Of a stretch of DNA of 58,907 nt, positions 2,569-20,719 are shown piece by piece. This DNA is from Flavobacteriaceae bacterium (GTDB lineage Bacteria; Bacteroidota; Bacteroidia; Flavobacteriales; Flavobacteriaceae). A program made the position numbers and the translations under genes. Location of the stretch: NCBI GenBank assembly GCA_013373635.1, contig JABXHN010000025.1, positions 1 through 58,907 of the forward strand, given 5' to 3'. Below the pieces are notes generated by a model. It was not told the DNA's origin and made no database searches. It saw nothing but the letters and a program-made list of their open reading frames with translations. Positions within the stretch are counted from its first letter, which is position 1, and each line of letters begins with the position of its first letter.

Positions 2569-3819
2569 CTAATGAGATACTCCTATTCCTATGGTTTGCA
2601 TATCCTCCCAGAAGTCAGGAAAGGACTTGGTAACTACCATCGCATCTTCAACTTTGAAGGGAACTAAGAGGGCTAATGGGGCAAAAGCCATTGCCATTCG
2701 ATGATCGTTATAAGTTGCAACAGATACTCCCAGATTGTAATCACCCTCAAAGAGTTCTAATTGAAGTGATTTGTCATCGATAGTTACCTTGGCTCCGAAC
2801 TTAGAGAGTTCATTGTAAAGAGCTACAAGACGATCGGTCTCTTTTATCTTAAGTGTGTGTAATCCAGTCAATGAACAAGAAACACCCAAACCAAAACAAG
2901 TCACTGCTATTGTTTGAGCAATATCTGGAGCATTTGCTAAATCCCATACCAAACCTGAATTCTTCACCTTAGAAGATACTTCACTTATCTTTTTAAGCAC
3001 AATTGAATGTCCTTCATAGGTCGTTTCAACTCCTAATTCTGTGTAGATTTGTGCAAGAACAGAATCTCCTTGAAGAGAGTCTTTTTTATAGGAGGAGAGT
3101 TTAATTTGAGAACCTATATCAGCTAAGGCACAAAGGCTGTAGAAATAAGAAGCAGAACTCCAATCGGACTCCACCACTAATTCTTGTGCACTCACAGATG
3201 ACTTGTGTGCTACTTTGATTATTTGTCCTTCAAAACTAGTTGATACTCCTATGCTATCTAAAAGAGCTAGAGTCATTTTTATATAAGGAACCGAAGTGAT
3301 TTTTCCTTCTAGGTGTAACTCCAATCCATTGGGAAGACTCGGTGCAATTAGCAGTAGTGAGGAAATGTACTGACTACTGACATTGGCAGCCATCACTACT
3401 TTGTTTTGTTCTAATTTTTTTCCAGTAATTTTTAATGGAGGATAGCCTTCATTCTTGGTGTATTCAATTGAAGCTCCAAGCGATCGAAGGGCGTCAACTA
3501 AAATCTTTATAGGGCGTTCCTGCATACGTTTAGATCCAGTAAGTATAACCTCTTTCCCTTCGCGAGAAGCAAAATAGGAAGTCAAAAAACGCATGGCTGT
3601 TCCAGCGTGATGAATGTCCACTTCCCCTTGATTAATCTTTAATCCAGCTGCCATTGCAACTGCATCGTCAGAATTGGAGGTATTGCTAATACTAATCTTA
3701 TCAAAAAGCGCTTGTAATAACAAGAGTCTGTTGGTTTCACTCTTAGAACCTGTTATTTGTATGTCCGCTTGTAGGTTCTTTGACTTAGGCAAAGACAATT
3801 CAAAAGTATATAAAGACAT
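2569..3819 (-). CDS. aroA: 3-phosphoshikimate 1-carboxyvinyltransferase (EPSP synthase)
   Basis: 416 residues. It catalyses shikimate-3-phosphate + PEP to EPSP, the sixth shikimate-pathway step. Visible motifs in order are GSKSETNRLLLL (substrate-binding Lys and Arg), HAGTAMRFLTSYF, KRMQERPI, SSQYISSLLLIAP, SDWSSASYFYSL, PDIAQTIAV, KETDRLVAL (catalytic Glu/Arg) and DHRMAMAFAPLAL. The usual NAGT is HAGT here. It is the last gene of a tight minus-strand set: rsgA, dtd, the MazG-like gene and aroA are separated by only 1-4 bases. A terminator separates it from the upstream Phe/Tyr operon, so it may not follow the same attenuation control. Confidence 0.97.
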   Translation of the reverse strand: MSLYTFELSLPKSKNLQADIQITGSKSETNRLLLLQALFDKISISNTSNSDDAVAMAAGLKINQGEVDIHHAGTAMRFLTSYFASREGKEVILTGSKRMQERPIKILVDALRSLGASIEYTKNEGYPPLKITGKKLEQNKVVMAANVSSQYISSLLLIAPSLPNGLELHLEGKITSVPYIKMTLALLDSIGVSTSFEGQIIKVAHKSSVSAQELVVESDWSSASYFYSLCALADIGSQIKLSSYKKDSLQGDSVLAQIYTELGVETTYEGHSIVLKKISEVSSKVKNSGLVWDLANAPDIAQTIAVTCFGLGVSCSLTGLHTLKIKETDRLVALYNELSKFGAKVTIDDKSLQLELFEGDYNLGVSVATYNDHRMAMAFAPLALLVPFKVEDAMVVTKSFPDFWEDMQTIGIGVSH

Positions 3820-5599: not shown

Positions 5600-6682
5600 T
5601 TAGTGGTTTACTATTTTTTCTTGGTGGTTAATCGATTCTTGGTGAATAGCTTTAAATAGTTTTAAAACAAATTCTTCACTAAGTCCTCTCTTTTCACCTT
5701 CTAAAATCATTCTTCCTAAAATTTCATTCCAACGGCTACTCTGTAATACAGATACGTTGTGTGCTTCTTTTAGTTGTCCAATAGCATCTGAAATTTTCAT
5801 ACGTTTTCCTAAACTCTCTAATAACTGCTCATCAATCACATCGATTTGAGAACGAAGCGTTCCAATTTCGTTGTTAAATGCCTGTTCAGGATCGTTTTGC
5901 TTACGCACTTTTAAGTCCTTCATCATTTTGATCAAAGAAGCTGGAGTCACTTGTTGAGGTGCATCAGACCATGCATTTTCAGGATCGTGATGTGTTTCGA
6001 TCATTAAACCATCGAAATTTAAATCAAGTGCCGTTTGACAAACTTCGTGAACCATGTCTCTCTTCCCAGTAATATGAGAAGGGTCGTTGATGATTGGTAA
6101 ATCAGGGAATCTTTGTTGTAATTCAATCGCTAATTGCCATTCAGGAATATTTCTGTACTTTGTTTTTTCATAAGTTGAGAAACCTCTGTGAATCACCCCT
6201 AAGTTTTTAATTCCAGCATTGTATAAACGCTCAACAGCACCTAACCACAAAGCTAAATCTGGATTTACTGGATTCTTAATAAGAACAATCTTATCAGTTC
6301 CTTTTAATTCATCAGCAATTTCTTGAATAATAAATGGAGATACAGTAGAACGAGCTCCAATCCACAATAAATCAACATCGTATTCCAAAGCGAGTTTAAC
6401 GTGATCTTTGTTTGCAACTTCAGTAGCTGTTTTTAATCCAGTCTCTTCTCTTACTTTTTGTAACCATTTTAATCCTAAAGCACCAACACCTTCAAATCCT
6501 CCTGGTCTTGTTCTAGGCTTCCAAATACCCGCTCTAAAATAATTTACATCCGTGTCTTTAAGCTCGTGAGCTATTTTCAACACTTGCTCTTCTGTTTCAG
6601 CACTACAGGGTCCTGCAATCACTAGGGGATGATCTAAGTTCATATCATCCAACCACTTTCTCAAATTCTTTGAATTTTCCAT
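5600..6682 (-). CDS. Bifunctional DAHP synthase / chorismate mutase
   Basis: 360 residues with two domains. Residues about 1-265 are a type-I DAHP synthase of the KDPG-aldolase-like (AroF-I beta) subfamily, shown by GPCSAET at 24-30, AGIWKPRTRPGGFEG and DPSHITGKRD. Residues about 272-360 are an AroQ-type chorismate mutase (LRSQIDVIDEQLLESLGKRM). It condenses PEP with erythrose-4-P and also converts chorismate to prephenate, so one protein covers the entry to the shikimate pathway and to the Phe/Tyr branch. In this subfamily the fused mutase can also act as a regulatory domain. It is the last gene of the operon, 8 bases after tyrA, with its own terminator. Confidence 0.95.
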   Translation of the reverse strand: MENSKNLRKWLDDMNLDHPLVIAGPCSAETEEQVLKIAHELKDTDVNYFRAGIWKPRTRPGGFEGVGALGLKWLQKVREETGLKTATEVANKDHVKLALEYDVDLLWIGARSTVSPFIIQEIADELKGTDKIVLIKNPVNPDLALWLGAVERLYNAGIKNLGVIHRGFSTYEKTKYRNIPEWQLAIELQQRFPDLPIINDPSHITGKRDMVHEVCQTALDLNFDGLMIETHHDPENAWSDAPQQVTPASLIKMMKDLKVRKQNDPEQAFNNEIGTLRSQIDVIDEQLLESLGKRMKISDAIGQLKEAHNVSVLQSSRWNEILGRMILEGEKRGLSEEFVLKLFKAIHQESINHQEKIVNH

Positions 6683-6690
6683 CGTTTTAA

Positions 6691-7548
6691 TTAATTATTA
6701 TGGGGAATCCCATTTAATATTTCCTTTATTTTATTCGTTTGTTCCATCTCGTTAAAAACAGCCTCATAAGCATCGTCTTCCATCAATTTCTTGAATGCTG
6801 TTAGATTAGAGATATACTCTTCTAATGCTTCAATAACATTAGATTTATTTTCAGCAAATATGGGAGTCCACATTGCTGGTGAACTTTTGGCAAGACGAAC
6901 CGTGCTTTCAAAACCTGATCCAGCCATGTCAAAAATATCATTTTCATTCTTTTCCTTTTCAATAACCGTCTTCCCTAACATAAAGGAGCTAATATGTGAT
7001 AGATGCGACACATATGCAATGTGCTTGTCATGTGACTTGGCGTTCATATAGCGAATTCTCATCCCTATAGCTCTAAAGAGCTCTACCGCTTTTTCCTGAA
7101 GTTTAAAAGCCGTGGCTTCCACTTCGCAGATGATCATTGTCTTGTCTTTATACAGTCCCTCTAAAGCTGCTTCTGGTCCAGAAAATTCAGTACCTGCAAT
7201 AGGGTGACATGCTAAAAAGTTTTTGCGATTGGTATGGCTCTTCACCGCCTCACAAATCGGTTCTTTGATCGATCCTGCGTCAAAAACCAGACAGTTGTCT
7301 GAGATTCGATCCAATACATCGACAAGAACTGGAACACTTACATCCACTGGAATACTAAGTATGACAACATCAGCCTTTGACAAATCCTCCATAGTAGCCT
7401 TGTGATCGATAATTCCCAGCTCCACAGCCTTGTCAAGAGTTGCCTCTCTTCTACTGATTCCGAAGAAATTAGCATCAGGGTATTGAGTTCTTAGGTCTTT
7501 TGCAAAAGACCCTCCTATTAAACCAACACCGATTAAAAATACATTCAT
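6691..7548 (-). CDS. tyrA: Prephenate dehydrogenase
   Basis: 285 residues. It begins MNVFLIGVGLIGGSFAKDL, a Rossmann GxGxxGG nucleotide-binding motif. The catalytic HPIAGTEFSGP motif lies at about residues 115-125, and the helical SHLSHISSFML segment is typical of TyrA. It oxidatively decarboxylates prephenate to 4-hydroxyphenylpyruvate. There is no fused chorismate mutase; the mutase is fused to the next gene instead. The start is 1 base after the aminotransferase stop. No C-terminal ACT domain is visible, so regulation may be transcriptional (the leader upstream of pheA) rather than by direct Tyr binding. Confidence 0.95.
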   Translation of the reverse strand: MNVFLIGVGLIGGSFAKDLRTQYPDANFFGISRREATLDKAVELGIIDHKATMEDLSKADVVILSIPVDVSVPVLVDVLDRISDNCLVFDAGSIKEPICEAVKSHTNRKNFLACHPIAGTEFSGPEAALEGLYKDKTMIICEVEATAFKLQEKAVELFRAIGMRIRYMNAKSHDKHIAYVSHLSHISSFMLGKTVIEKEKNENDIFDMAGSGFESTVRLAKSSPAMWTPIFAENKSNVIEALEEYISNLTAFKKLMEDDAYEAVFNEMEQTNKIKEILNGIPHNN

Positions 7549-7549
7549 C

Positions 7550-8698
7550 TTAGTTAAATCGATTTAATGCTTCAACAATTTTTTCTTCAGGAACACAAAG
7601 TGAAAAACGCACATAGCCTTCTCCATTGGATCCAAATATCGTTCCAGGTGCGATGAAGATGTCGTGCTCGTATAAGAGTTGATCCACCATCATTTCACTT
7701 GTAGTATGATTATTGCCAATCTTTGCCCAAACAAACATTCCTACAGCTGAAGGATCATAACTCAAATTGAGTTTGTCTGCTAATGCAAAGATGGCCTTTC
7801 TGCGTTTAGCGTAAATTTCGTTAAGTCCATCAAACCATGATTTAGGAGCTTTTAAGGCTTCAATCGCTCCTTTCTGAATTCCGTAAAACATTCCAGAATC
7901 CATATTGCTCTTTACTTTGAGAACCGCTTCTACTAAATCAGCTCTTCCCATGAGCATTCCAACTCTCCAACCTGCCATATTGAATGACTTGGATAGCGAA
8001 TTGAGTTCTAAAACGACTTCTTTTGCACCTTCTAAGGCAAGGATACTTTTTGGTGTTTTGTTGAGCACAAAACTGTATGGATTGTCCTTAACTAATAATA
8101 TTTGATGCTTTTTTGCAAAGGCAATTAAAGACTCCAAATCTGCATCTTCAGCAACAGCTCCCGTAGGCATATGAGGGTATCCTAGCCACATGAGTTTCAC
8201 CCCACTTAAATCCATTTTTTCTAGATCTGCAACCTGTGGAAACCAATTGTGTTTTTCTTCTAAATTGTAAAACAAAGGCTCTGCTTCTACCAAGCGCGTT
8301 ACAGAGGTATAGGTTGGATATCCAGGGTTTGGAACCAACACCTTATCTCCTGGATTTAAGAAGGCCATAGAAATATGCATGATTCCCTCCTTGGATCCCA
8401 TCAGTGGTAATACTTCACTAGTTGGATCTAGAGAAACTCCGTAATAGGTCTTGTAAAAATTCGCCATCTCCTCTCTTAACTCAGGAAGTCCCTGATACGA
8501 TTGGTATTGATGTGCTGATGGATGCGAAATAGCATCAGTAAGCGCATCGAGCACCTTTTGAGAAGGTGGTAAATCTGGAGAACCTATTCCCATATTGATG
8601 ATTGGCTTTCCTTGGCCCAACAGACCTCTTACCTCTCTCAATTTTTGTGAGAAATAGTACTCTTTTACCGATTGTAATCTATTGGCATTTTCAATCAT
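7550..8698 (-). CDS. PLP-dependent aminotransferase, class I/II, of the Phe/Tyr operon
   Basis: 382 residues, fold-type I. The PLP lysine lies in LNSLSKSFNMAGWRVGML (about residues 231-248). NPGYPTYTSV, DNPYSFV and the late VRFSLCVPEEKI are the usual substrate and phosphate-binding stretches. By position it should transaminate phenylpyruvate and 4-hydroxyphenylpyruvate (or prephenate) to complete Phe and Tyr synthesis. Sequence alone does not separate an aromatic from an aspartate/LL-DAP-like aminotransferase. Its ATG overlaps the pheA stop in an ATGA arrangement, pointing to translational coupling. Confidence 0.9.
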   Translation of the reverse strand: MIENANRLQSVKEYYFSQKLREVRGLLGQGKPIINMGIGSPDLPPSQKVLDALTDAISHPSAHQYQSYQGLPELREEMANFYKTYYGVSLDPTSEVLPLMGSKEGIMHISMAFLNPGDKVLVPNPGYPTYTSVTRLVEAEPLFYNLEEKHNWFPQVADLEKMDLSGVKLMWLGYPHMPTGAVAEDADLESLIAFAKKHQILLVKDNPYSFVLNKTPKSILALEGAKEVVLELNSLSKSFNMAGWRVGMLMGRADLVEAVLKVKSNMDSGMFYGIQKGAIEALKAPKSWFDGLNEIYAKRRKAIFALADKLNLSYDPSAVGMFVWAKIGNNHTTSEMMVDQLLYEHDIFIAPGTIFGSNGEGYVRFSLCVPEEKIVEALNRFN

Positions 8699-9522
8699 GA
8701 TCGAGCATTTTTATATTCTCCTAAGACTAAAAATTCTTCTGCCATAATTTCCAATAGAGAATGGGCTTTTTGGTAGTCTTCATACTTGTCAAAGGTCACA
8801 TCTACAAAAAAGGCATATTTCCAAGGAACATCAATTACTGGAAGGGATTGAATCTTCGTCAGGTTAATCGAACAATCACTTAAGACATTAAGCACCGTAG
8901 CAAGAGAGCCTCTTTTGTGATCCAATACAAAACGAAGTGACGCCTTGTTGATTTCACTCTTTGGAAGTTCCTTATTGCTTGCATTAATAATGATAAAACG
9001 TGTTGAATTGTGTTTAATCGTCTGAATATCATCTTCGATGATTTCAAGTTGGTATAATTCAGCAGCTTTCTTTGGTGCAATAGCAGCAACACCCATGAGT
9101 TTTTGCTCCTGAATATGTTTAGCAGAATCAGCGGTATCACTAGTCTCCACTAACTTTATATGAGGGTATTCATCAAAGAATTTCTTACACTGAAGAAGCG
9201 CCATAGGATGAGAATGCACTTCTTTAATATCCTCTAATGATTGACCTTCTAAAGCCATGAGATGATGATGGATATTCAAATAGTGTTCTCCAATAATATG
9301 AAGCTTGTTGTGATGAACAAGTGCGTAGTTCGGAATAATAGAACCAGCAATAGAATTTTCTATGGCCATCACTCCCTTATCAACACTACCATCGAGTATC
9401 TGACGAACCATTTGATCAAAGCTATCACACTCGCTGAGTGTAATATCAGTTCCAAAATAGTCTAATGCTACTTGATGGTGATTGGATCCCTTGATCCCTT
9501 GTATTGCTATTGTTAAACTCAT
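8695..9522 (-). CDS. pheA: Prephenate dehydratase
   Basis: 275 residues. The catalytic domain spans about 1-180 and contains the HNSTRFIII motif, whose Thr is catalytic. A C-terminal ACT domain (about 195-270) follows. It converts prephenate to phenylpyruvate. In the ACT domain the classic ESRP phenylalanine-binding motif reads QSLP (NLTKIQSLPV), so feedback inhibition by Phe may be altered. It is the first structural gene of the operon. Its ATG lies only 2 bases after the U-tract of the attenuator terminator, so expression is expected to depend on read-through. Confidence 0.96.
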   Translation of the reverse strand: MSLTIAIQGIKGSNHHQVALDYFGTDITLSECDSFDQMVRQILDGSVDKGVMAIENSIAGSIIPNYALVHHNKLHIIGEHYLNIHHHLMALEGQSLEDIKEVHSHPMALLQCKKFFDEYPHIKLVETSDTADSAKHIQEQKLMGVAAIAPKKAAELYQLEIIEDDIQTIKHNSTRFIIINASNKELPKSEINKASLRFVLDHKRGSLATVLNVLSDCSINLTKIQSLPVIDVPWKYAFFVDVTFDKYEDYQKAHSLLEIMAEEFLVLGEYKNARS

Positions 9523-9524
9523 TT

Positions 9525-9550
9525 AAAAAAAAATCCCGCTCTTGCGGGAC
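9525..9550 (-). terminator. Attenuator terminator just upstream of pheA
   Basis: On the minus strand GTCCCGC (9550-9544), loop AAGA and GCGGGAT (9539-9533) form a 7-bp stem followed by an uninterrupted run of nine U (9533-9525). The U-tract stops 2 bases before the pheA ATG. A terminator here, after a Phe/Tyr-rich leader ORF and before the first structural gene, is an attenuator rather than the end of another transcript. No minus-strand gene lies upstream for about 0.5 kb. Confidence 0.9.
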
Positions 9551-9594
9551 TTCTATAATTTTATGTTGATTTCTCAAATACTATATAAAGCCCC
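9546..9594 (-). promoter_or_regulatory. Antiterminator helix of the Phe/Tyr attenuator
   Basis: On the minus strand GGGGCUUUAUA (9594-9584) can pair with UAUAGAAGUCCC (9557-9546): 8 pairs, one bulged A, then 3 more pairs, including two G-U. The 3' strand contains the first five bases of the terminator 5' arm, so the two helices are mutually exclusive. The 5' strand begins with the last base of the leader stop codon. A ribosome finishing the leader would therefore mask it, whereas one stalled on Phe/Tyr codons would leave it free. A six-base match (ATACTA at 9634-9629 with TAGTAT at 9583-9578) could form a protector hairpin. Confidence 0.78.
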
Positions 9595-9650
9595 TAGCCC
9601 CTATTAAAATAGAAGTAAAAATAAGCGTTAGTATAAAATTGAGTATTCAT
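9594..9650 (-). CDS. Phe/Tyr leader peptide of the attenuator
   Basis: The 18-residue ORF MNTQFYTNAYFYFYFNRG runs from an ATG at 9650 to a TAG at 9594-9596. It contains four Phe and four Tyr, with YFYFYF at residues 10-15, and is preceded by the purine-rich AAAGGAAAT. It lies directly upstream of the antiterminator and attenuator terminator of the pheA operon. That placement and codon content are the hallmarks of ribosome-mediated attenuation as in E. coli pheL and trpL. The alternating codons fit an operon that makes both amino acids, since shortage of either charged tRNA would stall the ribosome in the same stretch. Being only 57 bases, it would be missed by normal gene calling. Confidence 0.88.
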   Translation of the reverse strand: MNTQFYTNAYFYFYFNRG

Positions 9651-9825
9651 ATTTCCTTTATTGAGCTGCTAATTTAGTATTAAAATTTATTTGAGCAAAT
9701 GAAATCATATGATTTTTACGTAATTAGCATAATTCATCACAATTTATCTCTATATAATTATATTTAAGAGGGATGAATTTAATTCTTATTAATTTGATAT
9801 AAGATGTCGTTTAACGAATCCCTAG
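9651..9825. other. AT-rich intergenic region upstream of the leader
   Basis: No gene or stable hairpin is seen. The promoter of the leader transcript must lie here on the minus strand. The best -7 match is TTCATTTG at about 9701 to 9694 (7 of 8 to TAnnTTTG), without a convincing TTG at the right distance, so no promoter is claimed. Confidence 0.5.
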
Positions 9826-9854
9826 TTGAAAATATCATCGGTTCCATATTTTTA
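9826..9854 (+). promoter_or_regulatory. Candidate promoter for the small membrane protein gene
   Basis: TTG at 9826-9828, an 18-base spacer and TATTTTTA at 9847-9854 (7 of 8 to TAnnTTTG). The first ATG of the small gene is 20 bases further on. The arrangement fits the Bacteroidota promoter pattern. Confidence 0.45.
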
Positions 9855-9874
9855 CATAATACAGCAATTAAAAA

Positions 9875-10111
9875 ATGAAATGTGAAAGTAATATGAAAAA
9901 TACAATATCAAAATATCCAATTATTTATTTATTCCTATTCTGTTGTGGTGGGCTAATATTAGGTATTGAGTTGAGTGAAATTATAAAACACGGATTTCCT
10001 AAAGACAATGTAAATCTCATACTGGATCTTAGCAGTATAATCTTCACAGCATTTTTATCTTTTTATTTTTTCTTTTGTTTTATAAAGACAAAAAAAACTA
10101 AACCTGACTAA
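9875..10111 (+). CDS. Small hypothetical membrane protein
   Basis: 78 residues with two hydrophobic segments (about residues 15-33 and 50-70) separated by a charged loop, and a basic tail ending KTKKTKPD. This predicts a two-helix inner-membrane protein. I do not recognise a family. A second ATG at 9893 (MKNTISKYP) is an equally possible start. Its 3' end overlaps the convergent metF stop by 4 bases. A reasonable promoter lies upstream. It is AT-rich and sits between two large biosynthetic operons, so it could be a lineage-specific insertion. Whether it is translated is not certain. Confidence 0.5.
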   Translation: MKCESNMKNTISKYPIIYLFLFCCGGLILGIELSEIIKHGFPKDNVNLILDLSSIIFTAFLSFYFFFCFIKTKKTKPD

Positions 10112-11058
10112 AACAAGGCTTTTGCAATATTGTAAATATTGTCAGATTTACCCATAGAATAGTAATGAAGTACTGGTACTCCAGCTTCTTTGAGTTCTCT
10201 GGATTGTTGAATTGCCCACTCGGTTCCTACCTCTCTTACAGCTTTATTATCCTTAGCGGCATCCACTGCATCAACTAAATCTTGTGGAAGGTCTATTTTA
10301 AATACCTGTGGTAATATATTTAAATGACGCTTTACTGCAATCGGTTTTATTCCTGGTATGATTGGAATAGTGATTCCCATAGCTCTTGCAGCCTCTACAA
10401 ACTCAAAATACTTTTGATTGTCAAAAAACATCTGTGTTACGACATAATCAGCTCCCTGATCTACCTTGTGTTGTAATCTTTGTAAGTCGGTCTTTAGAGA
10501 AGGAGCCTCCATATGTTTTTCTGGATATCCAGCTACTCCTACACAAAAATCAGAAAAAATTCCATCCTCTGTTGATTCGTACAGAAACTTTCCTTTGTTT
10601 AAATTCTTTATTTGAGTAACGAGCTCTGATGCATAAGTATGCCCTCCCTTTGTCGGAGTGAAAAAAGCCTCCTCTCTACGAGCATCTCCTCTTAATGCCA
10701 TCACATTTTCAATTCCCAAATACTGACAATCAACCAACATATATTCGGTTTCTTCTTTAGTAAAACCTCCACAGATCACATGAGGAACCGCATCGATCTT
10801 ATATTTATTCATGATCGAAGCACAGATTCCAACTGTTCCAGGTCTGGTTCTGGTGATCTGTTTTTCCAATCCACCCTCTTTTTGAATGTAAATGGCCTGT
10901 TCTCTCGAGGTAGTCACATCGATAAAGGGAGGCTTAAATTCCATTAGCGGATCGATATTGTTGAACAATTCCTGTATTCCCTTCCCTTTCACTGGAGGGA
11001 CGATTTCAAAAGAAAACAAGGTGTCTTTTGCCTGATTGATATGATCGGTAATTTTCAT
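10108..11058 (-). CDS. metF: Methylenetetrahydrofolate reductase MetF
   Basis: 316 residues, a flavin-dependent TIM barrel. The opening FSFEIVPPVKGKG carries the catalytic Glu, followed by FIDVTTSREQ, VMALRGDAR and GADYVVTQMFFDNQKYFEF, all characteristic of MetF. It reduces 5,10-methylene-THF to 5-methyl-THF, the methyl donor for MetH. It starts 4 bases after the metH stop and is the last gene of the methionine operon. No terminator is seen between it and the convergent small gene. Confidence 0.97.
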   Translation of the reverse strand: MKITDHINQAKDTLFSFEIVPPVKGKGIQELFNNIDPLMEFKPPFIDVTTSREQAIYIQKEGGLEKQITRTRPGTVGICASIMNKYKIDAVPHVICGGFTKEETEYMLVDCQYLGIENVMALRGDARREEAFFTPTKGGHTYASELVTQIKNLNKGKFLYESTEDGIFSDFCVGVAGYPEKHMEAPSLKTDLQRLQHKVDQGADYVVTQMFFDNQKYFEFVEAARAMGITIPIIPGIKPIAVKRHLNILPQVFKIDLPQDLVDAVDAAKDNKAVREVGTEWAIQQSRELKEAGVPVLHYYSMGKSDNIYNIAKALF

Positions 11059-11062
11059 AATC

Positions 11063-14000
11063 TTATTCGTTTGCTAAATTTGGAGCGAGCCACTTTTCTG
11101 CCTTTTCAATCGCTATTCCCTTTCTTTGGGCGTACTCCTCTAATTGTTCTTTAGTTATTTTTCCAACTCCAAAATACTTAGCCTCAGGATGTGCAAAATA
11201 GTATCCGGATACGGATGCTGCAGGCCACATGGCCAGACTTTCAGTAAGCGTTACCCCAATTGCATTTTCGACATCTAATAATTCCCAAATCGTTTCTTTT
11301 TCCAAGTGATCTGGACAAGCTGGATAGCCTGGGGCAGGCCTAATTCCCTTATACTGTTCACCGATGAGCTGATCATTAGTTAAATCCTCATCCTTAGCAT
11401 ACCCCCAGTAATTGGTTCGAACCTCTTTGTGGAGGTATTCAGCAGCTGCTTCAGCAAAACGGTCAGCGATCGCTTTAACCATGATGGAGTTGTAGTCATC
11501 GTGATTTTGCTGGTGCTGTTTCGCTAGTTCATCTGCTCCAAATACCGAAACACAAAAAGTTCCTATATAATCAGTCACATTTGATGATTTAGGTGCTATA
11601 TAGTCGCTAAGCGCCCTGTAAGAAGCTCCATCTCGCTTCTTGAGCTGTTGGCGAAGGGTTCTAAATACTTTACCATTGGCAAGTTCTATATCATCACTAT
11701 CATTACTATTAGCCTCAAAAATTCCAAAAACAGCTTTGGCTTGTAGTTGCTTTTGATCGATGAGTTCCTCTAAAGTAGCAAGAGCGTCTTTGTATAGACT
11801 GGTCGCTTGTTCTCCAACAACCTCATCAGTTAAAATAGCAGGATATTTTCCGTGTAAATCCCAGGATCTAAAAAAGGGAGTCCAATCGATAAACTCTTTA
11901 AGATCATTGAGGTTTAAGTCTAAAACCTTAATCCCTTTCTCCTTTGGTTCTACTGCTTGAAATTGATCCCAATTCAGAGCTACTTTATCGGCTCTTGCAT
12001 CGACAAGGGACACATAGGTTTTCTTTTTGGTTCGAGCCAAGAACTTCTGGGCAAACTCCTGGTACTCGTTTTGGATTTCCTGTTTGTAACGATCATTGGT
12101 TTCCTCTTGAAGCAAGTCTCCAACCACCGTTACCGCTCTAGAAGCATCATTGACATGAACTACTCCATATGGGTATTCTGGTGCAATCTTCACAGCAGTA
12201 TGTGCCTTAGAAGTCGTTGCTCCCCCAATGAGTAATGGTATTTGAAATCCTTCGCGTTTCATTTCTTTAGCTAAGAACACCATTTCATCTAAGGATGGAG
12301 TAATCAGTCCACTGAGTCCAATGACATCCACCTGTTCTTCCTTAGCCTTGGCAATAATCTTTTCAGGTGGAACCATCACTCCGAGATCCACTATTTCATA
12401 ATTGTTACAAGCTAAAACGACCGATACGATATTCTTACCGATATCGTGTACATCACCCTTGACAGTCGCCATTAATATCTTACCAGCTGCCTTAGTCTTC
12501 TCACCTGATTGATTGTTCTCAATTTCGATAAAGGGCAATAAATAGGCTACCGCCTTTTTCATAACACGAGCTGACTTGACCACCTGCGGTAAGAACATCT
12601 TACCATCACCAAAGAGGTCTCCAACTACATTCATTCCAATCATCAAATTGCCTTCGATGACTTCGATCGTTTTCTTACTGGCTAATCTCGCTTCTTCTAC
12701 ATCTTCAATAATGTAAGAATCGATTCCCTTTACGAGTGCCCTAGTGATTCTATTTTGAAGGGGTTCTTCTCTCCAAGAGAGATCTACCTTGGATTCTTTT
12801 GCAGTCCCCACTACTGTTTCAGCAAAATCCAAAAGACGTTCCGTCGCATCATCTCTACGATCTAAGATCACATCTTCAACATGCTCCAAAAGATCCTTAG
12901 GAATGTCATCGTATACTTCTAAAAGAGCAGGATTGACAATTCCCATATTCATTCCCGCTTTAATAGCGTGATATAAGAATACCGAATGCATGGCCTCTCG
13001 TACAGGATTGTTTCCTCTAAAACTGAAGGACACATTACTCACACCACCGGATACGCTACAATGAGGTAAGTTTTCTTTTACCCATCGTGTTGCTTCGATA
13101 AAATCAATTGCATTTTTGCGGTGTTCATCCATCCCAGTAGCTACAGGAAATATATTGAGGTCAAAGATGATATCCTCAGCTGGGAAATTAACCTCATCTA
13201 CCAAAATATCATAAGATCTTTTGGCTATTTCAATTCTGCGATCGTAATTATCAGCTTGTCCTACCTCATCAAAAGCCATCACGATAACTGCTGCACCGTA
13301 TTGTTTGATCGATGTAGCTTGTTGGATAAAATTCTCTTCTCCTTCTTTAAGTGAAATGGAATTTACTACACATTTTCCTTGAACGACCTGAAGACCCGCT
13401 TCAATAATCTCCCATTTGGAAGAATCGATCATAATGGGAACCTTTGAAATATCAGGTTCAGAAACGATAAGATTTAAGAATTCTACCATAGCCTCCTTAC
13501 CGTCGATTAGACCATCGTCCATATTGATATCGATAATCTGAGCACCATTATCTACTTGATCTCTTGCTATATCGAGAGCTTCATCAAATAAGCGATCCTT
13601 GATGAGTCGAAGGAATTTTCGAGAACCTGCCACATTGGTACGCTCACCAACATTGATAAAATTACTTTCTGGAGTAATCACAAGTGGTTCCAAGCCAGAG
13701 AGTTTCATCTGATGATCTTTAGACTGACCAAATACTCTTGGCTTTCCCTTTGAAGCTTCCTGAGCAATAGCTGCTATGTGTTCTGGCCTTGTTCCACAGC
13801 AACCTCCAACGATATTGACCAGTCCTTTTTCGATATAATTCTTTATTTGAGCAGCCATCTGTTTGGCTGTCTCATCGTATTCTCCAAAAGCATTTGGCAA
13901 ACCAGCATTTGGGTGAGCCGATACTGCAAAAGGAGCTTTCTGTGCCAAAACTTCAAGATGTGGAGTCAAGGCATCAGCACCTAAGGCACAGTTAAAACCA

Positions 14001-14725
14001 ATGGATAACAAATTAGCATGTGCCATCGAAATTAAAAAGGCTTCAGCCGTTTGTCCAGAAAGAGTTCTACCAGAAGCATCTGTAATGGTACCACTGATCA
14101 TAATCGGCAAATCGATCGAGCGTTCCTTATTAACCGCTTCGATAGCAAATAATGCCGCCTTTGCATTTAAGGTATCAAAGATGGTCTCGACTAATATGAT
14201 ATCAACACCTGCATCTACCAGAGCGTCGACCTGTTGCTTATAGGCTGTTCTTAACTCTTCAAATGAAATGGCTCTAAAACCAGGATTATTGACATCAGGC
14301 GACAAACTTGCTGTCTTGTTGGTAGGCCCGACACTCCCTGCTACAAAGCGAGGTTTTGAAGGGTCTTTTTTCGTAAACTCATCACAGACTTCTTTGGCGA
14401 GTTTAACAGCCTCAAAATTTAACTCATAGACCAATTCTTGCATCTGGTAATCTTCCATAGCAATGGTTGTACAAGAGAAGGTATTGGTTTCTATGATATC
14501 TGCACCCGCCTCAGCGTATTTGCGATGAATGGTCTTAATCGCCTCTGGCTGGGTTAGGGTTAATAAATCATTATTCCCCTGAAGTGGAGAAGGCCAATCT
14601 GCGAATCGCTTACCACGATAATCCTCTTCCGTAAATTTGTACTCTTGAATCATGGTTCCCATGGCTCCATCGAGTACTAAAATGCGTTTTTCTAATTGAG
14701 CTACTATGTCTTTTTTTGTTGCCAA
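11063..14725 (-). CDS. metH: Cobalamin-dependent methionine synthase MetH, full length
   Basis: 1220 residues with all four modules. The homocysteine-binding domain (about 1-325) has zinc ligands Cys246 and Cys309/Cys310 (GGCCGT). The pterin-binding domain (about 350-620) contains [13 protein letters not shown]. The B12 domain (about 650-890) contains GDVHDIGKN with cobalt-ligating His760. The SAM-dependent reactivation domain (about 900-1220) contains [14 protein letters not shown]. It transfers methyl from 5-methyl-THF to homocysteine and requires B12, which I do not see made in this window. The start appears to be TTG at 14725 (TTG GCA ACA AAA), giving the expected [20 protein letters not shown]; no in-frame ATG fits better. 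It follows metZ by 12 bases. Confidence 0.97.
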
Positions 14726-14737
14726 TAGATGTTGTAT

Positions 14738-15919
14738 TTAAGCGTTTGCTTTTTCTAAAGCTTGATCGATATCTGCAATGATATCATCGATATGTTCTAA
14801 TCCTACAGAAATACGTATCATTCCTTCACTGATACCAGCGTCTTGAAGTTGCTCAGGAGTTAATTTGGAATGCGTTGTCGATGCAGGATGGGTTACTATA
14901 CTTCTTGAATCTCCTAAATTAGCAGAGAGCGACAGCATTTGAATAGCATTAAAGAATCGTTTCCCTGACTCTAAACCACCTTTAACTTCAAAAGCCACAA
15001 CAGCTCCACCTGCCTTCATTTGCTTTTTCGCTACCTCATACATGGGATGAGACTTTAAAAAAGGATATTTTACCATCTCAACTTCGGGATGTGCTTCCAA
15101 GTGCTTGGCGAGTGCCAATGCATTTTCACAATGACGATCTACACGAACCGCTAAGGTTTCTAAACTCTTAGAAAGTACCCATGCATTAAATGGAGAAAGT
15201 GCAGGTCCAGTGATTCTAGCAAAACGATACACCTTATCGATAAGATCAGCAGAACCTACGGTTATACCTCCCAATACTCTTCCTTGACCATCCATCAACT
15301 TGGTTGCTGAATGAATCACTAAATCAGCACCAAAAGCAATAGGTTGTTGTAAATATGGAGAGGCAAAGCAGTTATCGACAATCAATAACAATTGATGCTT
15401 TTTAGCCAATTTTCCTAAAGCTTCTAAATCCAAAACATCTACTCCAGGATTGGTTGGAGATTCCACGTATAGAATCTTTGAATTTGGTTGAATCAACCTC
15501 TCAATTGATTCCATTGAATCCGTCACTTTAAAAAGTGACGTTTCAATATTCCACTTGGGAAAGAAATTGTTATACAAACTTAATGTCGATCCAAATACAC
15601 TTGCTGAAGAAACAATATGATCACCACTGTTAAGCAGTGCAGCAAATGTTGAATAGACAGCCGCCATTCCAGATGCGAAGGCAAATCCTGCCTCAGCTCC
15701 TTCCATTTGACATACCTTTTCAATAAACTCAGAAGAGTTGGGATTGGAATATCTGGAATAGATATTGCGTTCTTTCTCCTCTGCAAAAGAGGCTCTCATA
15801 TCTTCAGCATCCTCAAACACAAAACTAGAAGTTAAGTATAAGGGTGTGGAATGTTCTAAGAACGAACTGCGTTCGTTTTGAGTTCTTATAGCGTTTGTTT
15901 CAAACTTTTTCTTAGTCAT
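14738..15919 (-). CDS. metZ: O-acylhomoserine sulfhydrylase (MetZ-like, Cys/Met metabolism PLP enzyme)
   Basis: 393 residues. PLP lysine Lys207 lies in HSATKLMDGQGRVLGG, a form typical of O-succinylhomoserine sulfhydrylases (MetZ). SRYSNPNSSEFIEKV and FASGMAA are further family motifs. It should make homocysteine directly from an activated homoserine and sulfide. Its partner is the homoserine acyltransferase domain encoded immediately upstream (2 bases away), whose acyl donor (acetyl or succinyl) I cannot determine. A cystathionine gamma-synthase role is less likely because no metC/beta-lyase is present and the motif is MetZ-like. Confidence 0.88.
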   Translation of the reverse strand: MTKKKFETNAIRTQNERSSFLEHSTPLYLTSSFVFEDAEDMRASFAEEKERNIYSRYSNPNSSEFIEKVCQMEGAEAGFAFASGMAAVYSTFAALLNSGDHIVSSASVFGSTLSLYNNFFPKWNIETSLFKVTDSMESIERLIQPNSKILYVESPTNPGVDVLDLEALGKLAKKHQLLLIVDNCFASPYLQQPIAFGADLVIHSATKLMDGQGRVLGGITVGSADLIDKVYRFARITGPALSPFNAWVLSKSLETLAVRVDRHCENALALAKHLEAHPEVEMVKYPFLKSHPMYEVAKKQMKAGGAVVAFEVKGGLESGKRFFNAIQMLSLSANLGDSRSIVTHPASTTHSKLTPEQLQDAGISEGMIRISVGLEHIDDIIADIDQALEKANA

Positions 15920-15921
15920 AA

Positions 15922-18900
15922 CTATGCTTTTTCTACGATGCGTAATATATCTCCAAACACCCCTCTTGCAGTCACAGCTGCTCCTGCACCTGCTCCTTGA
16001 ATCACAATAGGGTTTTCTCCATAGGACTCTGTGTAAATCTCAATGAGCGAATCGGATCCTTTCATCTGTCCTAATGGACTCTGCTTTGGAACTGAAACTA
16101 ACTTCACTTCTAAATTTCCTTTGGATTGCTGTAAATCTCCTGAGAGATCACCAACATATCTCAACACATGATCTTCTTTTTGATTTGCTTTTAAAGCAGC
16201 AAATGTCTCATCTAATTCCTCAATTCTATTTAAGAATTCATCTTTAGACAACGAAGCTAAATGATCTGGAATCAAATTCTGAATCACCACTTCAGAAAGC
16301 TCATTCTCTAAATCCAATTCTCTAGCTAAGATAAGGAGTTTTCTACCGACATCGTTCCCCATCAGATCTTCCCTTGGATCGGGTTCGGTAAACCCTTTTT
16401 CCAAGGCTTCTTTTACCTGAGTCGAAAAGGCAACATCCTTATCACAAAAGGTGTTAAATATATAGGAAAGTGAACCTGAGAACACTCCCTTAATACGAGT
16501 GATATTTTCTCCTGAAAGATGTAATAATGCTATGGTGTTAATCAGTGGCAACCCAGCTCCAACATTGGTCTCATATAAGTATTGCTTTTGATTTGAAGCC
16601 AAGACTTCTCGAAGTTCATTGTAGAATGAAATCGATTTAGTATTGGCAATCTTATTCGACGACACCAAATCAAATCCATGAGCTACAATATCTTGATAGT
16701 GATCTACAAAAACACTATTAGCAGTATTATCAACTAAGATGAGATTCTCTAAATGGTTTTGATCTGCAAAAGCATACAGTTCAGCTAAATCATTGGAAGT
16801 AGAAGCCTTAGAGAGTTGAGCTCTCCAATTCTTATCGATTCCTTTGTGATCTAACAACAACTGTTTTGAATTGGCCAACGCAAAAATATTGAGTTTGACC
16901 CCTTTCTTTTGTTCGATGGTATCCGCAGCTTTAATGATTTGATCCACGAGTGTCCCTCCTACATTACCAACACCAAATATGGCGAGGTTTACTTTCTTGG
17001 ATTGACCAAAAATTTCACCGTGAATTACATTAAGCGCCTTGTGTAAATCGGACTTCTTAAGCACCAAACTCACGTTCTTACCAGTAACCGTATTATTAAA
17101 CAGCAAGGGAACTACGCCATTGTTGATAATCGCAGAATAAGGTTTGTGAAAACCGCTGAGGTCTTGACCGACAATCGAAACCACCGATACATTATCTACT
17201 CCACTGATGGTATTGACATCCTGAGAATAGAAATCTTGTTCAAATTCTCGCTCTAAGGCGATTATTGCCTGAGTCGCATCATCGGCGTTTACAACAAGTC
17301 CAATTCCTCGTTCTGAAGAACCCTGTGAAATAATACTTACAGAGATGTTTTTATTTCCAAGGGCCCCAAAAATACGCGCATCTACTCCGGCTTTTCCGAG
17401 AAGACCTCTACCCTCGATATTGATCAGTGTTACATCTTCAATCACTGAAAGTGATTTGATTCCTTGCTTAGAACTCTTAGCACTAATAAGTGTCCCTTGG
17501 TTATCCTCGTTAAAGGTATTGAGAATACGAAGTGGAATATTCTTTTCAATAAGCGGAATAATCGTTTTCGCATGTAAGATATTCGTTCCAAAATTTGCTA
17601 ACTCATTGGCCTCAGAATATGAGAGGTTTTCGATAAGTTCTGCATCTTCTACGAGTTCTGGATTTGCCGTAAAGATTCCATCTACATGAGTGTAGTTTTG
17701 AAGTTCTTTAGCATTCAAGAAATTAGCGAGTAAAGCCGCTGAATAGTTGGATCCATTTCTACCGAGTGTTGTCGTTTCATTATCGACATTGGATGCGATA
17801 AAACCAGTAAATACAGGAATCAATCCTTTGGGTAATTCTTCAAAAGCTTTAATCACATTTTCTTTTGAAATGTGCTCTATCACTTGAGCATTTCCGTGAA
17901 TATCATTGGTTTTAATCAGTTTTCTAGCATCTATTTCTCGAGCTTTAATTCCTCTGTTGTTCAAAAGCTCCACAATCACCCGAACTGAAATTAATTCTCC
18001 ATATGACAAGAGTTGATCTTTGGTTTTTGAAGAATAATCACCAACAAGTGCTACCCCTGAAAGTAATTTCTCAATAGCTTTAAACTCTTCTTCGAGTAAA
18101 CTAGCTTTAACAGGACTTGATTGTTCTTTTTTGAAGGCTTCAAAGTCCTGTGAAAAAGAAACACCTCTCGAAGCTTTAGACAATAAATCAATCAAGGCAT
18201 CTGTTGCTTCTCCTCTTGCTGATAAAACCACAGCAATCGGAATTTTCAAATGAGCTTTTTTATCAATTATAGACAATACATGCTCAAGGCCAGTTCCATT
18301 GGCAAGAGAGCGTCCTCCAAACTTTAAGACAGTGATTTTATCTAATTGAGCATCTTTATTAAAGATAGAATCCAACAAGCGTTCCATCTGATCGTATTCG
18401 ATCAAAAAGGCATCGTGACCGTGAAGGGAGTTGACCTCTCCGTAGGTTACATTACTATGTGCTTGTGCTAATTGTTTAAAGGTCTCTTTGTTTTCAACTG
18501 CAGTAAAGAACATATCAGAATCCACACCGATGATATGAATATTGGTGTTGGAATTTTGAAGTCTTTCAAATGCTGCTGTACCATTTCTTGTGATATCAAT
18601 CGATCTGAGCAATTGATTCATCAATTTATAAGCCTTCAACTGAAAACGCTCTTGAAGTTTTTCTCCGTGATGCGTAAGCCAACTCTCTACATTAAAAACT
18701 TGAAGATCTTCATTAGTGCTACGACCAAAACGTTGTTTAAAAGATTCAGGAGTTCTATAACACAGCATCGCATGCATACGAGCGTCGTGAACAGGCTGTT
18801 TTGAGTTGAGCAAGAATTGTTCTTGTATTTGACAATTGGCAATCAACCAATCGGTGGATTTCCAATCCGAAGCTACCGGTATTAAGTGCTGGGTAAGATT

Positions 18901-19308
18901 TGGATTTAAAGCAGCCATTTCCCATGCAATACCTCCACCTAGAGACCCTCCGATTAAAGCGAATAGTTGATCTATTTTCAACTGCTCTAATGCAATCAAA
19001 AAGATCTTAGCAATATCTTGAGCTACAAAATCTTTATAATTATCGATGACAAATCCATCATAACCATTACCTGGAATATTAAAACAAATAATCGTATACT
19101 TATTGGTATCAATACACTTTCCTTCTCCGATGAGCGTTTTCCACCATCCCGTCGCTCCTGCTACATTTGAATTACCTGTAAGAGCGTGATTTACCATCAC
19201 CACAGGAGCAGTTCCTAATTCTTTTCCAAAGAGTTCGTAGGACAATTCTATATCAATAGTATATCCTGTATTTGTGGTGTACTTATCTATTTTTAATTTT
19301 TCTAACAT
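15922..19308 (-). CDS. Trifunctional homoserine O-acyltransferase / aspartate kinase / homoserine dehydrogenase fusion
   Basis: 1128 residues in one continuous frame. Residues 1 to about 318 form an alpha/beta-hydrolase acyltransferase (MetX type) with nucleophile Ser122 in GGSLGG, Asp265 in GVDSDMF and His298 in HGHD. Residues about 324-770 form an aspartate kinase (KFGGRSL, TTLGRNGSNYSAAL) with two ACT-type regulatory segments (about 620-770). Residues about 772-1128 form a homoserine dehydrogenase with Rossmann motif FGVGNVGG and the signature GFTEPDPREDLMGNDVGRKL. The protein covers the first, third and fourth steps from aspartate to acyl-homoserine; only Asd is missing. It sits between metK and metZ. 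The kinase-dehydrogenase part is ThrA/MetL-like; the extra N-terminal MetX domain is the unusual part. Confidence 0.93.
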   Translation of the reverse strand: MLEKLKIDKYTTNTGYTIDIELSYELFGKELGTAPVVMVNHALTGNSNVAGATGWWKTLIGEGKCIDTNKYTIICFNIPGNGYDGFVIDNYKDFVAQDIAKIFLIALEQLKIDQLFALIGGSLGGGIAWEMAALNPNLTQHLIPVASDWKSTDWLIANCQIQEQFLLNSKQPVHDARMHAMLCYRTPESFKQRFGRSTNEDLQVFNVESWLTHHGEKLQERFQLKAYKLMNQLLRSIDITRNGTAAFERLQNSNTNIHIIGVDSDMFFTAVENKETFKQLAQAHSNVTYGEVNSLHGHDAFLIEYDQMERLLDSIFNKDAQLDKITVLKFGGRSLANGTGLEHVLSIIDKKAHLKIPIAVVLSARGEATDALIDLLSKASRGVSFSQDFEAFKKEQSSPVKASLLEEEFKAIEKLLSGVALVGDYSSKTKDQLLSYGELISVRVIVELLNNRGIKAREIDARKLIKTNDIHGNAQVIEHISKENVIKAFEELPKGLIPVFTGFIASNVDNETTTLGRNGSNYSAALLANFLNAKELQNYTHVDGIFTANPELVEDAELIENLSYSEANELANFGTNILHAKTIIPLIEKNIPLRILNTFNEDNQGTLISAKSSKQGIKSLSVIEDVTLINIEGRGLLGKAGVDARIFGALGNKNISVSIISQGSSERGIGLVVNADDATQAIIALEREFEQDFYSQDVNTISGVDNVSVVSIVGQDLSGFHKPYSAIINNGVVPLLFNNTVTGKNVSLVLKKSDLHKALNVIHGEIFGQSKKVNLAIFGVGNVGGTLVDQIIKAADTIEQKKGVKLNIFALANSKQLLLDHKGIDKNWRAQLSKASTSNDLAELYAFADQNHLENLILVDNTANSVFVDHYQDIVAHGFDLVSSNKIANTKSISFYNELREVLASNQKQYLYETNVGAGLPLINTIALLHLSGENITRIKGVFSGSLSYIFNTFCDKDVAFSTQVKEALEKGFTEPDPREDLMGNDVGRKLLILARELDLENELSEVVIQNLIPDHLASLSKDEFLNRIEELDETFAALKANQKEDHVLRYVGDLSGDLQQSKGNLEVKLVSVPKQSPLGQMKGSDSLIEIYTESYGENPIVIQGAGAGAAVTARGVFGDILRIVEKA

Positions 19309-20604: not shown

Positions 20605-20639
20605 GGCTAGGTAGAATGTCACGATAAGATACCGAAACA

Positions 20640-20706
20640 ACTGCTTTAGCAATTTTTTTTGTAGAATTTTCTACAAGAGGTTGCAATCAGTCAAATCCTT
20701 CCTCTT
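20640..20706 (-). ncRNA. SAM-II-type (SAM-alpha) riboswitch upstream of metK
   Basis: The minus strand shows stem P1 AAGAGG/CCTCTT (20706-20701 with 20680-20675) enclosing a loop with GATTTGACTGATTGCAA. After an inserted hairpin TTGTAGAA/TTCTACAA comes TTGCTAAAGCAGT. The loop and tail can form the SAM-II pseudoknot: GCAA (20684-20681) with TTGC (20652-20649), and ACTG (20691-20688) with CAGT (20643-20640). The conserved core GATTTrAcyG-ATTGCAA and the GCTAAA tail match the SAM-II consensus as I recall it. The inserted hairpin makes it a longer variant than the minimal alphaproteobacterial form. Position before metK and the whole methionine operon supports SAM sensing. I could not run a covariance model. 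Confidence 0.88.
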
Positions 20707-20719
20707 TTAATTTAGAATG

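Follow-up and report, generated by a model that had tools for sequence, protein, structure and literature searches.

Organization of the aromatic gene run and its leader

The window, a 58,907-nucleotide stretch from a Flavobacteriaceae bacterium with a 2.5-Mb genome, carries on its minus strand a run of aromatic biosynthesis genes headed by pheA, and all parts of the leader described below lie on the same strand as this gene. Among named contigs, the nearest relative of this pheA is found in an uncultured Flavobacteriaceae bin (98% identity), and the next in Maribacter (75%). The features, in the order of transcription, are as follows.

9696–9699, minus strand: TTTG, candidate upstream promoter element of the Bacteroidota type (sequence match)
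9669–9676, minus strand: TAAATTAG, candidate −7 promoter element, 19 nt from the TTTG (sequence match)
9594–9650, minus strand: leader ORF MNTQFYTNAYFYFYFNRG, 18 codons, with ATG at 9650–9648 and stop codon TAG at 9596–9594
9606–9623, minus strand: control codons Tyr-Phe-Tyr-Phe-Tyr-Phe (position-wise composition and frame test)
9584–9594, minus strand: strand 2, the antiterminator 5′ strand, which begins inside the leader stop codon (fold)
9546–9557, minus strand: strand 3, the antiterminator 3′ strand, which overlaps the terminator 5′ arm and covaries with strand 2 (fold)
9525–9554, minus strand: intrinsic terminator, a hairpin with a nine-U tract (fold and hairpin scan)
8695–9522, minus strand: pheA, prephenate dehydratase (PDT domain; Pfam PF00800, 7.6e-60; ACT match under the cut-off)
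7550–8698, minus strand: class I/II aminotransferase (Pfam PF00155), overlapping the end of pheA
6691–7548, minus strand: tyrA, prephenate dehydrogenase (Pfam PF02153, PF20463)
5600–6682, minus strand: DAHP synthase fused to chorismate mutase (Pfam PF00793, PF01817)
2569–3819, minus strand: aroA, EPSP synthase (Pfam PF00275), in the same minus-strand gene run

The aroA gene is the fourth after that for the DAHP synthase-chorismate mutase fusion, and the gaps between the called ORFs are at most 45 nt; this spacing suggests that aroA may be co-transcribed with the pheA gene run. The whole aromatic operon is presumably transcribed as one unit. In the best 80 of 121 related loci, which were kept for the comparison, the aminotransferase gene follows 3′ of pheA in 80/80, tyrA in 78/80, and the DAHP synthase gene in 76/80.

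Transcription would start near 9664, about 14 nt 5′ of the leader ATG. For the motif counts, we relaxed what we take to be the Bacteroidota promoter consensus and used a sample of 218 leaders, close relatives included. As a result, TTG-N17..21-TAnnT[TA][TA]G was found upstream of 121 of the 218 leaders, compared with 2.4 in single-base shuffles, and a −7-like motif was found for 194 of them, compared with 25 in shuffles, most commonly at a distance of 26 nt before the leader ATG.

The original prediction, made from the sequence, had proposed an 18-codon ORF rich in Phe and Tyr and containing YFYFYF, and both its coordinates and its residue counts (four Phe and four Tyr) proved correct. The window leader has no Trp. 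It had further proposed that 9594–9584 pairs with 9557–9546, starting at the last base of the stop codon. The coordinates were again right, and the minimum-energy fold contained eight contiguous pairs, 9594–9587 with 9553–9546, at −13.8 kcal/mol for the folded stretch. Taken alone, the window antiterminator is only moderately unusual (z −2.44, with 3 of 200 shuffles equal or better, and 2 of 30 linker shuffles folding equally well), and the case for an attenuator rests on conservation. The proposed nine-U terminator was also confirmed. Its stem comprises nine pairs, 9552–9544 with 9539–9531, around the loop AAGA, or 11 pairs under a looser scan, and the hairpin has a z score of −4.30, with none of 200 shuffles as good. 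The nine Ts occupy 9533–9525, ending 2 bases before the pheA ATG (9522). As predicted, the two structures have sequence in common; they share 9552–9546 and are thus mutually exclusive. A small ORF in which codons for the operon's products abound, an intrinsic terminator between this ORF and the first gene, and a conserved antiterminator that excludes the terminator are all features of a ribosome-mediated attenuator, and all were found here.

The hexamer GGGGCT is present twice on the minus strand of the window leader, at 9601–9596 and 9594–9589. The first copy lies within a small predicted hairpin formed with leader codons, 9615–9609 with 9604–9598, which may perhaps act as a pause site.

Conservation of the leader in Flavobacteriaceae and beyond

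We then investigated the spread of the leader. It precedes a terminator in all 80 of the best-matching loci (best 80 of 121). The family sample consisted of 149 Flavobacteriaceae genomes, one per genus, of which 130 contain the PDT gene and 19 gave no PDT match. The leader was present in 125 of these 130 genomes, in agreement with the conservation in relatives that the original prediction called for; 122 were detected by a script as leader plus hairpin and three by reading. The three leaders missed by the script are those of L127, where the start is lost at the contig end, L179, where the extract stops in the hairpin 5′ arm, and L190, where the hairpin went undetected. On reading, the leader was absent from the other five regions of the 130 (L115, L142, L147, L172, and L192). 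A strict aromatic ORF, defined by at least 7 Phe or Tyr residues, a content of at least 35%, and an ATG start, occurred in 85/130 regions; shuffled sequences gave 1.25 and the opposite strand gave 2. Together with a hairpin followed by a T run, it occurred in 83/130 regions, whereas dinucleotide shuffles averaged 0.2.

Outside the family, 9 of the 23 loci taken from elsewhere in the order passed the script, as did 7 of the 18 from the remainder of the class, at least one of the latter (L244) being doubtful. None was accepted in two other families of the order, f5 (6 loci) and f16 (4 loci, from 0.6-Mb genomes). Some further loci outside the family carry an aromatic ORF, but with no hairpin acceptable to the script.

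The covariance model R1 matched 7 of 119 class genomes at E ≤ 0.01, the own genome included. Its seven foreign matches comprised three pheA leaders and four sequences that read as ordinary terminators; the model thereby adds three loci of the class (L266, L267, and L268), each directly 5′ of an apparent prephenate dehydratase gene. These counts reflect a low sensitivity across many genomes, as exemplified by genome G127, which was missed and has the leader (L013). In the own genome, where scoring covered 150 of 3080 candidates and reading covered 8 of 13 matches, the pheA leader stood out as the single strong match of the model (E 3.5e-7), the next being at 0.5. Leader-peptide attenuation is indicated as the usual control of Phe and Tyr synthesis in Flavobacteriaceae, as is its presence in further Bacteroidia.

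Codon content of the leader peptides

In the 80 best-matching loci, most of the peptides, encoded upstream of the terminator, have the form MTxxYFWNGFYFYFFFKRGxGLL. Per 100 residues, the 122 script-detected family leaders contain 23.4 Phe, 15.6 Tyr, and 3.1 Trp, compared with a background of 4.4, 3.6, and 0.84, respectively, in the long ORFs of the 80 loci, which corresponds to enrichments of 5.3-, 4.3-, and 3.7-fold. Trp is present in 84 of the 122 peptides. In the last five codons of the aromatic block, T[TA][TC] was found 585 times out of 610 in frame and 185 and 193 times out of frame, and both this frame contrast and the high aromatic content of the block derive partly from selection, since the block was picked by in-frame runs of aromatic residues. 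At the third positions of the block codons, T and C are both common.

These contents bear on which amino acids would be sensed. A leader that responds to Phe only, as in E. coli pheL, with the Tyr codons as passengers or for the tuning of speed, would agree with Phe being the commonest residue at the last block codon (position 0, 83%) and at positions −1 (80%), −2 (80%), and −4 (72%). However, the 4.3-fold enrichment of Tyr, its occurrence at least twice in every one of the 122 leaders and in 71% of them at position −3, and the presence in the operon of tyrA in addition to pheA all argue against this explanation, which we consider unlikely. The codon enrichment instead suggests that Tyr is sensed as well as Phe.

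In one clade (68 leaders), whose peptides end in ETLYV, a Tyr codon beyond the switch point is common (55% Tyr at +8). A ribosome stalled at this codon would favor termination, not antitermination.

Joint changes of the pairing strands

In 121 of the 122 family leaders, at least five contiguous pairs join strand 2 to the 5′ arm of the terminator. In comparison with linker shuffles, the antiterminator helix had a mean z score of −3.5 over the 122 leaders, and its energy beat all 30 shuffles in 92 of them, whereas helix length alone did so in only 25. Furthermore, counted from the first base of the final block codon, the helix starts 10–17 nt downstream in 114/122 leaders.

We tested the covariation of the antiterminator by cross-pairing, as the MAFFT alignments A1 and A2 place strand 2 one base off register between clades. 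In 71 non-redundant leaders, the strands of the same leader paired at a mean of −13.0 kcal/mol, compared with −9.6 kcal/mol for foreign strands, a difference favored by the fact that the 71 were drawn from the 114 of 122 leaders already known to have the helix at 10–17 nt. None of 5000 permutations reached it; the permutation of strands ignores relatedness, and this figure is support, not a probability. The own strand was better than the foreign mean in 69/71 leaders and within the top tenth in 31/71. The strand-3 cores CCCG, CTCG, or CCTG are matched in strand 2 by GGG, GAG, or AGG in 55 of 62 leaders, and nine more leaders have other cores. In alignment A1, both partners have changed in 8 of the 10 terminator pairs; the hairpin finder demanded perfect stems, which makes this covariation and the 3:4 cross-pairing partly circular, and the rows of the pairing test were preselected for having a hairpin, which favors the result. 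Compensatory changes, as expected from the original prediction, were thus found in both helices, with this selection caveat for the terminator. By eye, in both A1 and A2, the leader frame is shifted by one base against the strand 2 register between two clades (CGGGACT in one and CGAGACT in the other).

Effect of ribosome position and the proposed mechanism

The effect of the ribosome was calculated by thermodynamic folding of cut transcripts with an assumed footprint of 13 nt; footprints of 11 to 15 nt move the edge of the switch by about one codon. Over the 122 leaders, the mean antiterminator probability was 0.75 with the ribosome at the upstream aromatic codons and 0.69 at the last one, then decreased to 0.46, 0.18, and 0.09 over the three codons that follow, and was 0.08 at the stop codon, where it lay below 0.3 in 117/122. 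In the window, it was 0.76 at the last Phe codon, followed by 0.58, 0.24, and 0.05, and 0.02 at the stop codon. The proposal that a stalled ribosome frees the antiterminator strand and a ribosome at the stop codon hides it, the behavior of an attenuator, was thus borne out in this folding calculation. The E. coli K-12 leaders pheL, thrL, leuL, hisL, trpL, and pheM gave curves of similar shape, high at the control codons and 0.00–0.12 at the stop codon. The fit was imperfect for two of them: leuL levels off at just 0.5 and partly recovers, to about 0.3, ahead of the stop codon, and hisL drops already at the last His codon. A seventh E. coli leader, ivbL, was excluded, since the finder gave no hairpin.

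On these grounds, namely the conserved parts, pairings that exclude each other, strands that change jointly, and the spacing from the codons to strand 2, we conclude with a probability of about 0.92 that the pheA-aminotransferase-tyrA-DAHP synthase operon is under the control of ribosome-mediated transcription attenuation. In the proposed mechanism, RNA polymerase would start about 14 nt before the leader ATG, and a ribosome would follow on the leader peptide. When charged tRNA-Phe and tRNA-Tyr are ample, the ribosome would reach the stop codon and cover strand 2 (9594–9584), leaving strand 3 free to form the terminator, and transcription would stop before pheA. When either charged tRNA is short, the ribosome would stall within the aromatic block, whose final codon starts 14 nt 5′ of strand 2, and strand 2 would capture strand 3, so that no terminator forms and the operon is read. 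The charging of the tRNAs would thus be the signal for the response in the cell.

A protector (1:2) fold is usual in E. coli attenuators and is not strictly defining. When the leaders were folded up to strand 3 without a ribosome, the antiterminator probability was 0.79 in the window and 0.61 on average over the 122 leaders, with 17/122 below 0.3, whereas the six E. coli leaders gave 0.00–0.33 when folded from 14 nt before the ATG and 0.08–0.34 from 30 nt before. Other results point to some protection. Before strand 3 exists, strand 2 pairs upstream with a mean probability of 0.57 (0.56 in the window), and shuffles fold slightly less well than the upstream region (mean z −1.0; below −2 in 18/122). 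The pairing of strand 2 with strand 3 decreases from 0.75 with a stalled ribosome to 0.51 in the naked transcript, and falls by more than half in 38/122 leaders. The high values without a ribosome suggest, with less certainty, that many family leaders, including that of the window, have no strong protector hairpin. Without a protector, an untranslated leader might tend to read through and would be ON, opposite to what is seen in leaders of the E. coli type. We tentatively speculate that a protectorless three-strand attenuator sensing Phe and Tyr, and in most genera of the family Trp as well, was the ancestral control of the aromatic operon, including DAHP synthase, in Bacteroidia, a proposal that we ourselves hold to be rather doubtful.

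Alternative explanations

Translational control, in which the hairpin near the pheA ATG would block ribosome entry and the leader ribosome would decide access to the start, was rejected as the main mode. The T run of the window does end 2 nt before the ATG, and the hairpin lies at most 12 nt from the assigned ATG in 36/122 family leaders; however, it is more distant in the other 86 (13–40 nt in 54 and more than 40 nt in 32). In addition, T runs of 5–10 follow the hairpin in 122/122 leaders, five Ts having been required by the finder, and at least seven Ts are present in 114/122. Such a run serves termination rather than a block of translation, and we regard this mode as very unlikely.

The leader ORF might also encode a functional small protein, with a merely constitutive terminator before pheA, and its reading frame indeed looks protected. 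However, outside the aromatic block this short peptide varies, and the codon spacing and the joint changes of the strands would be left unexplained. Furthermore, in two lineages, that of the window and L031 and that of L088, a premature TAG interrupts the leader at the same variable codon, and the downstream letters GGGGCT or GGGACT have been kept; L088 retains the usual stop codon as well, with three codons between the two stops. The preservation of the tail letters despite the early stop in two lineages implies that the tail is conserved as RNA, as expected for a pairing role. A stand-alone small protein, which these surviving pairing letters led us to reject, is thus highly improbable.

Finally, a metabolite riboswitch or T-box, to which a structured 5′ element might otherwise point, can practically be dismissed, since no Rfam family reached its cut-off in the leader region, the T-box was not among the ten matches there at E ≤ 10, and the aromatic ORF would go unexplained.

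Other leaders in the genome and comparison with known systems

Besides the attenuator proposed for pheA, the own genome contains two further leaders of such kind, making three with that of pheA. At locus L273 (G000:C34), a His-rich leader, MKKTHSHHHIVNYFQTR, is followed by a terminator directly before hisG; the Rfam His_leader model gave no match in the own genome, although this leader is present by reading. At locus L111 (G000:C90:148501-148619), a Bacteroid-trp leader scored 48.7 bits against a cut-off of 49, and contains a Trp-rich ORF, VNKNYTNTKWWWNSQS, which starts from GTG and lies upstream of an apparent anthranilate synthase gene. For the ilvD match of this genome, no leader was found by reading in the 420 bases upstream. 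In the window itself, a SAM-II riboswitch (69.1 bits) lies at 20636–20710 on the minus strand, and the genes at 10108–19308 on the same strand resemble, by reading, those for methionine and homoserine.

Leader-peptide attenuation is a classical kind of regulation, and a 2004 comparative study by Vitreschak and colleagues reportedly included some Bacteroidetes. The Bacteroid-trp element (Rfam RF01692) is an attenuator, which fits the Trp codons found in the copy of the own genome. It resembles the pheA leader as a Bacteroidota leader before an aromatic biosynthesis gene, but differs in its Trp codons and its operon, and it was not listed at E ≤ 10 for window positions 9400–10110. The best Rfam match by bits at the leader was the Phe_leader model (RF01859), at 28.0 against a gathering score of 55, and hence below the cut-off.

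In the literature, Bacteroid-trp is given as one of the cis-regulatory RNAs (PMC2864571), and a transcriptome study of Bacteroides thetaiotaomicron describes short ORFs in long 5′ UTRs that are reminiscent of leader peptides (PMC7366714). A 2021 study of Flavobacterium psychrophilum describes, upstream of pheA, a 5′ element that is structured and conserved, occurs in other Flavobacteriaceae genera as well, and has no Rfam hit; the same section mentions strong clues that amino-acid operons are preceded by leader-peptide attenuators (PMC9723704). This element is probably the same as the window leader. For pheA, that section specifies neither the leader sequence nor its codons or pairing, and it does not name pheA in connection with attenuation. 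The literature searched showed no fuller description of a flavobacterial pheA leader. The pheA leader was thus partly anticipated in print (PMC9723704), and its novelty, judged against this section, is moderate. As far as we found, the present analysis gives the specific wiring, namely the codons, strands, and switch point, for an element that had previously only been flagged in flavobacteria.

Among the closest known systems is E. coli pheL-pheA, with which the window leader shares an aromatic leader peptide, a mutually exclusive antiterminator and terminator, a switch at the last Phe codon, and the same first target gene. In contrast, the pheL peptide has no Tyr, where the window leader has four, and tyrA is on the opposite strand in E. 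coli, but lies inside the pheA gene run here. E. coli pheM, the leader of pheST, is similarly Phe-rich, with one Tyr, and shows a similar shape of the switch, but controls phenylalanyl-tRNA synthetase rather than biosynthesis. Without a ribosome, the antiterminator probability is low for pheL (0.14) and 0.24–0.34 for pheM, as opposed to the high value of the window leader. The possible absence of a protector would set the window leader cleanly apart from its E. coli counterparts.
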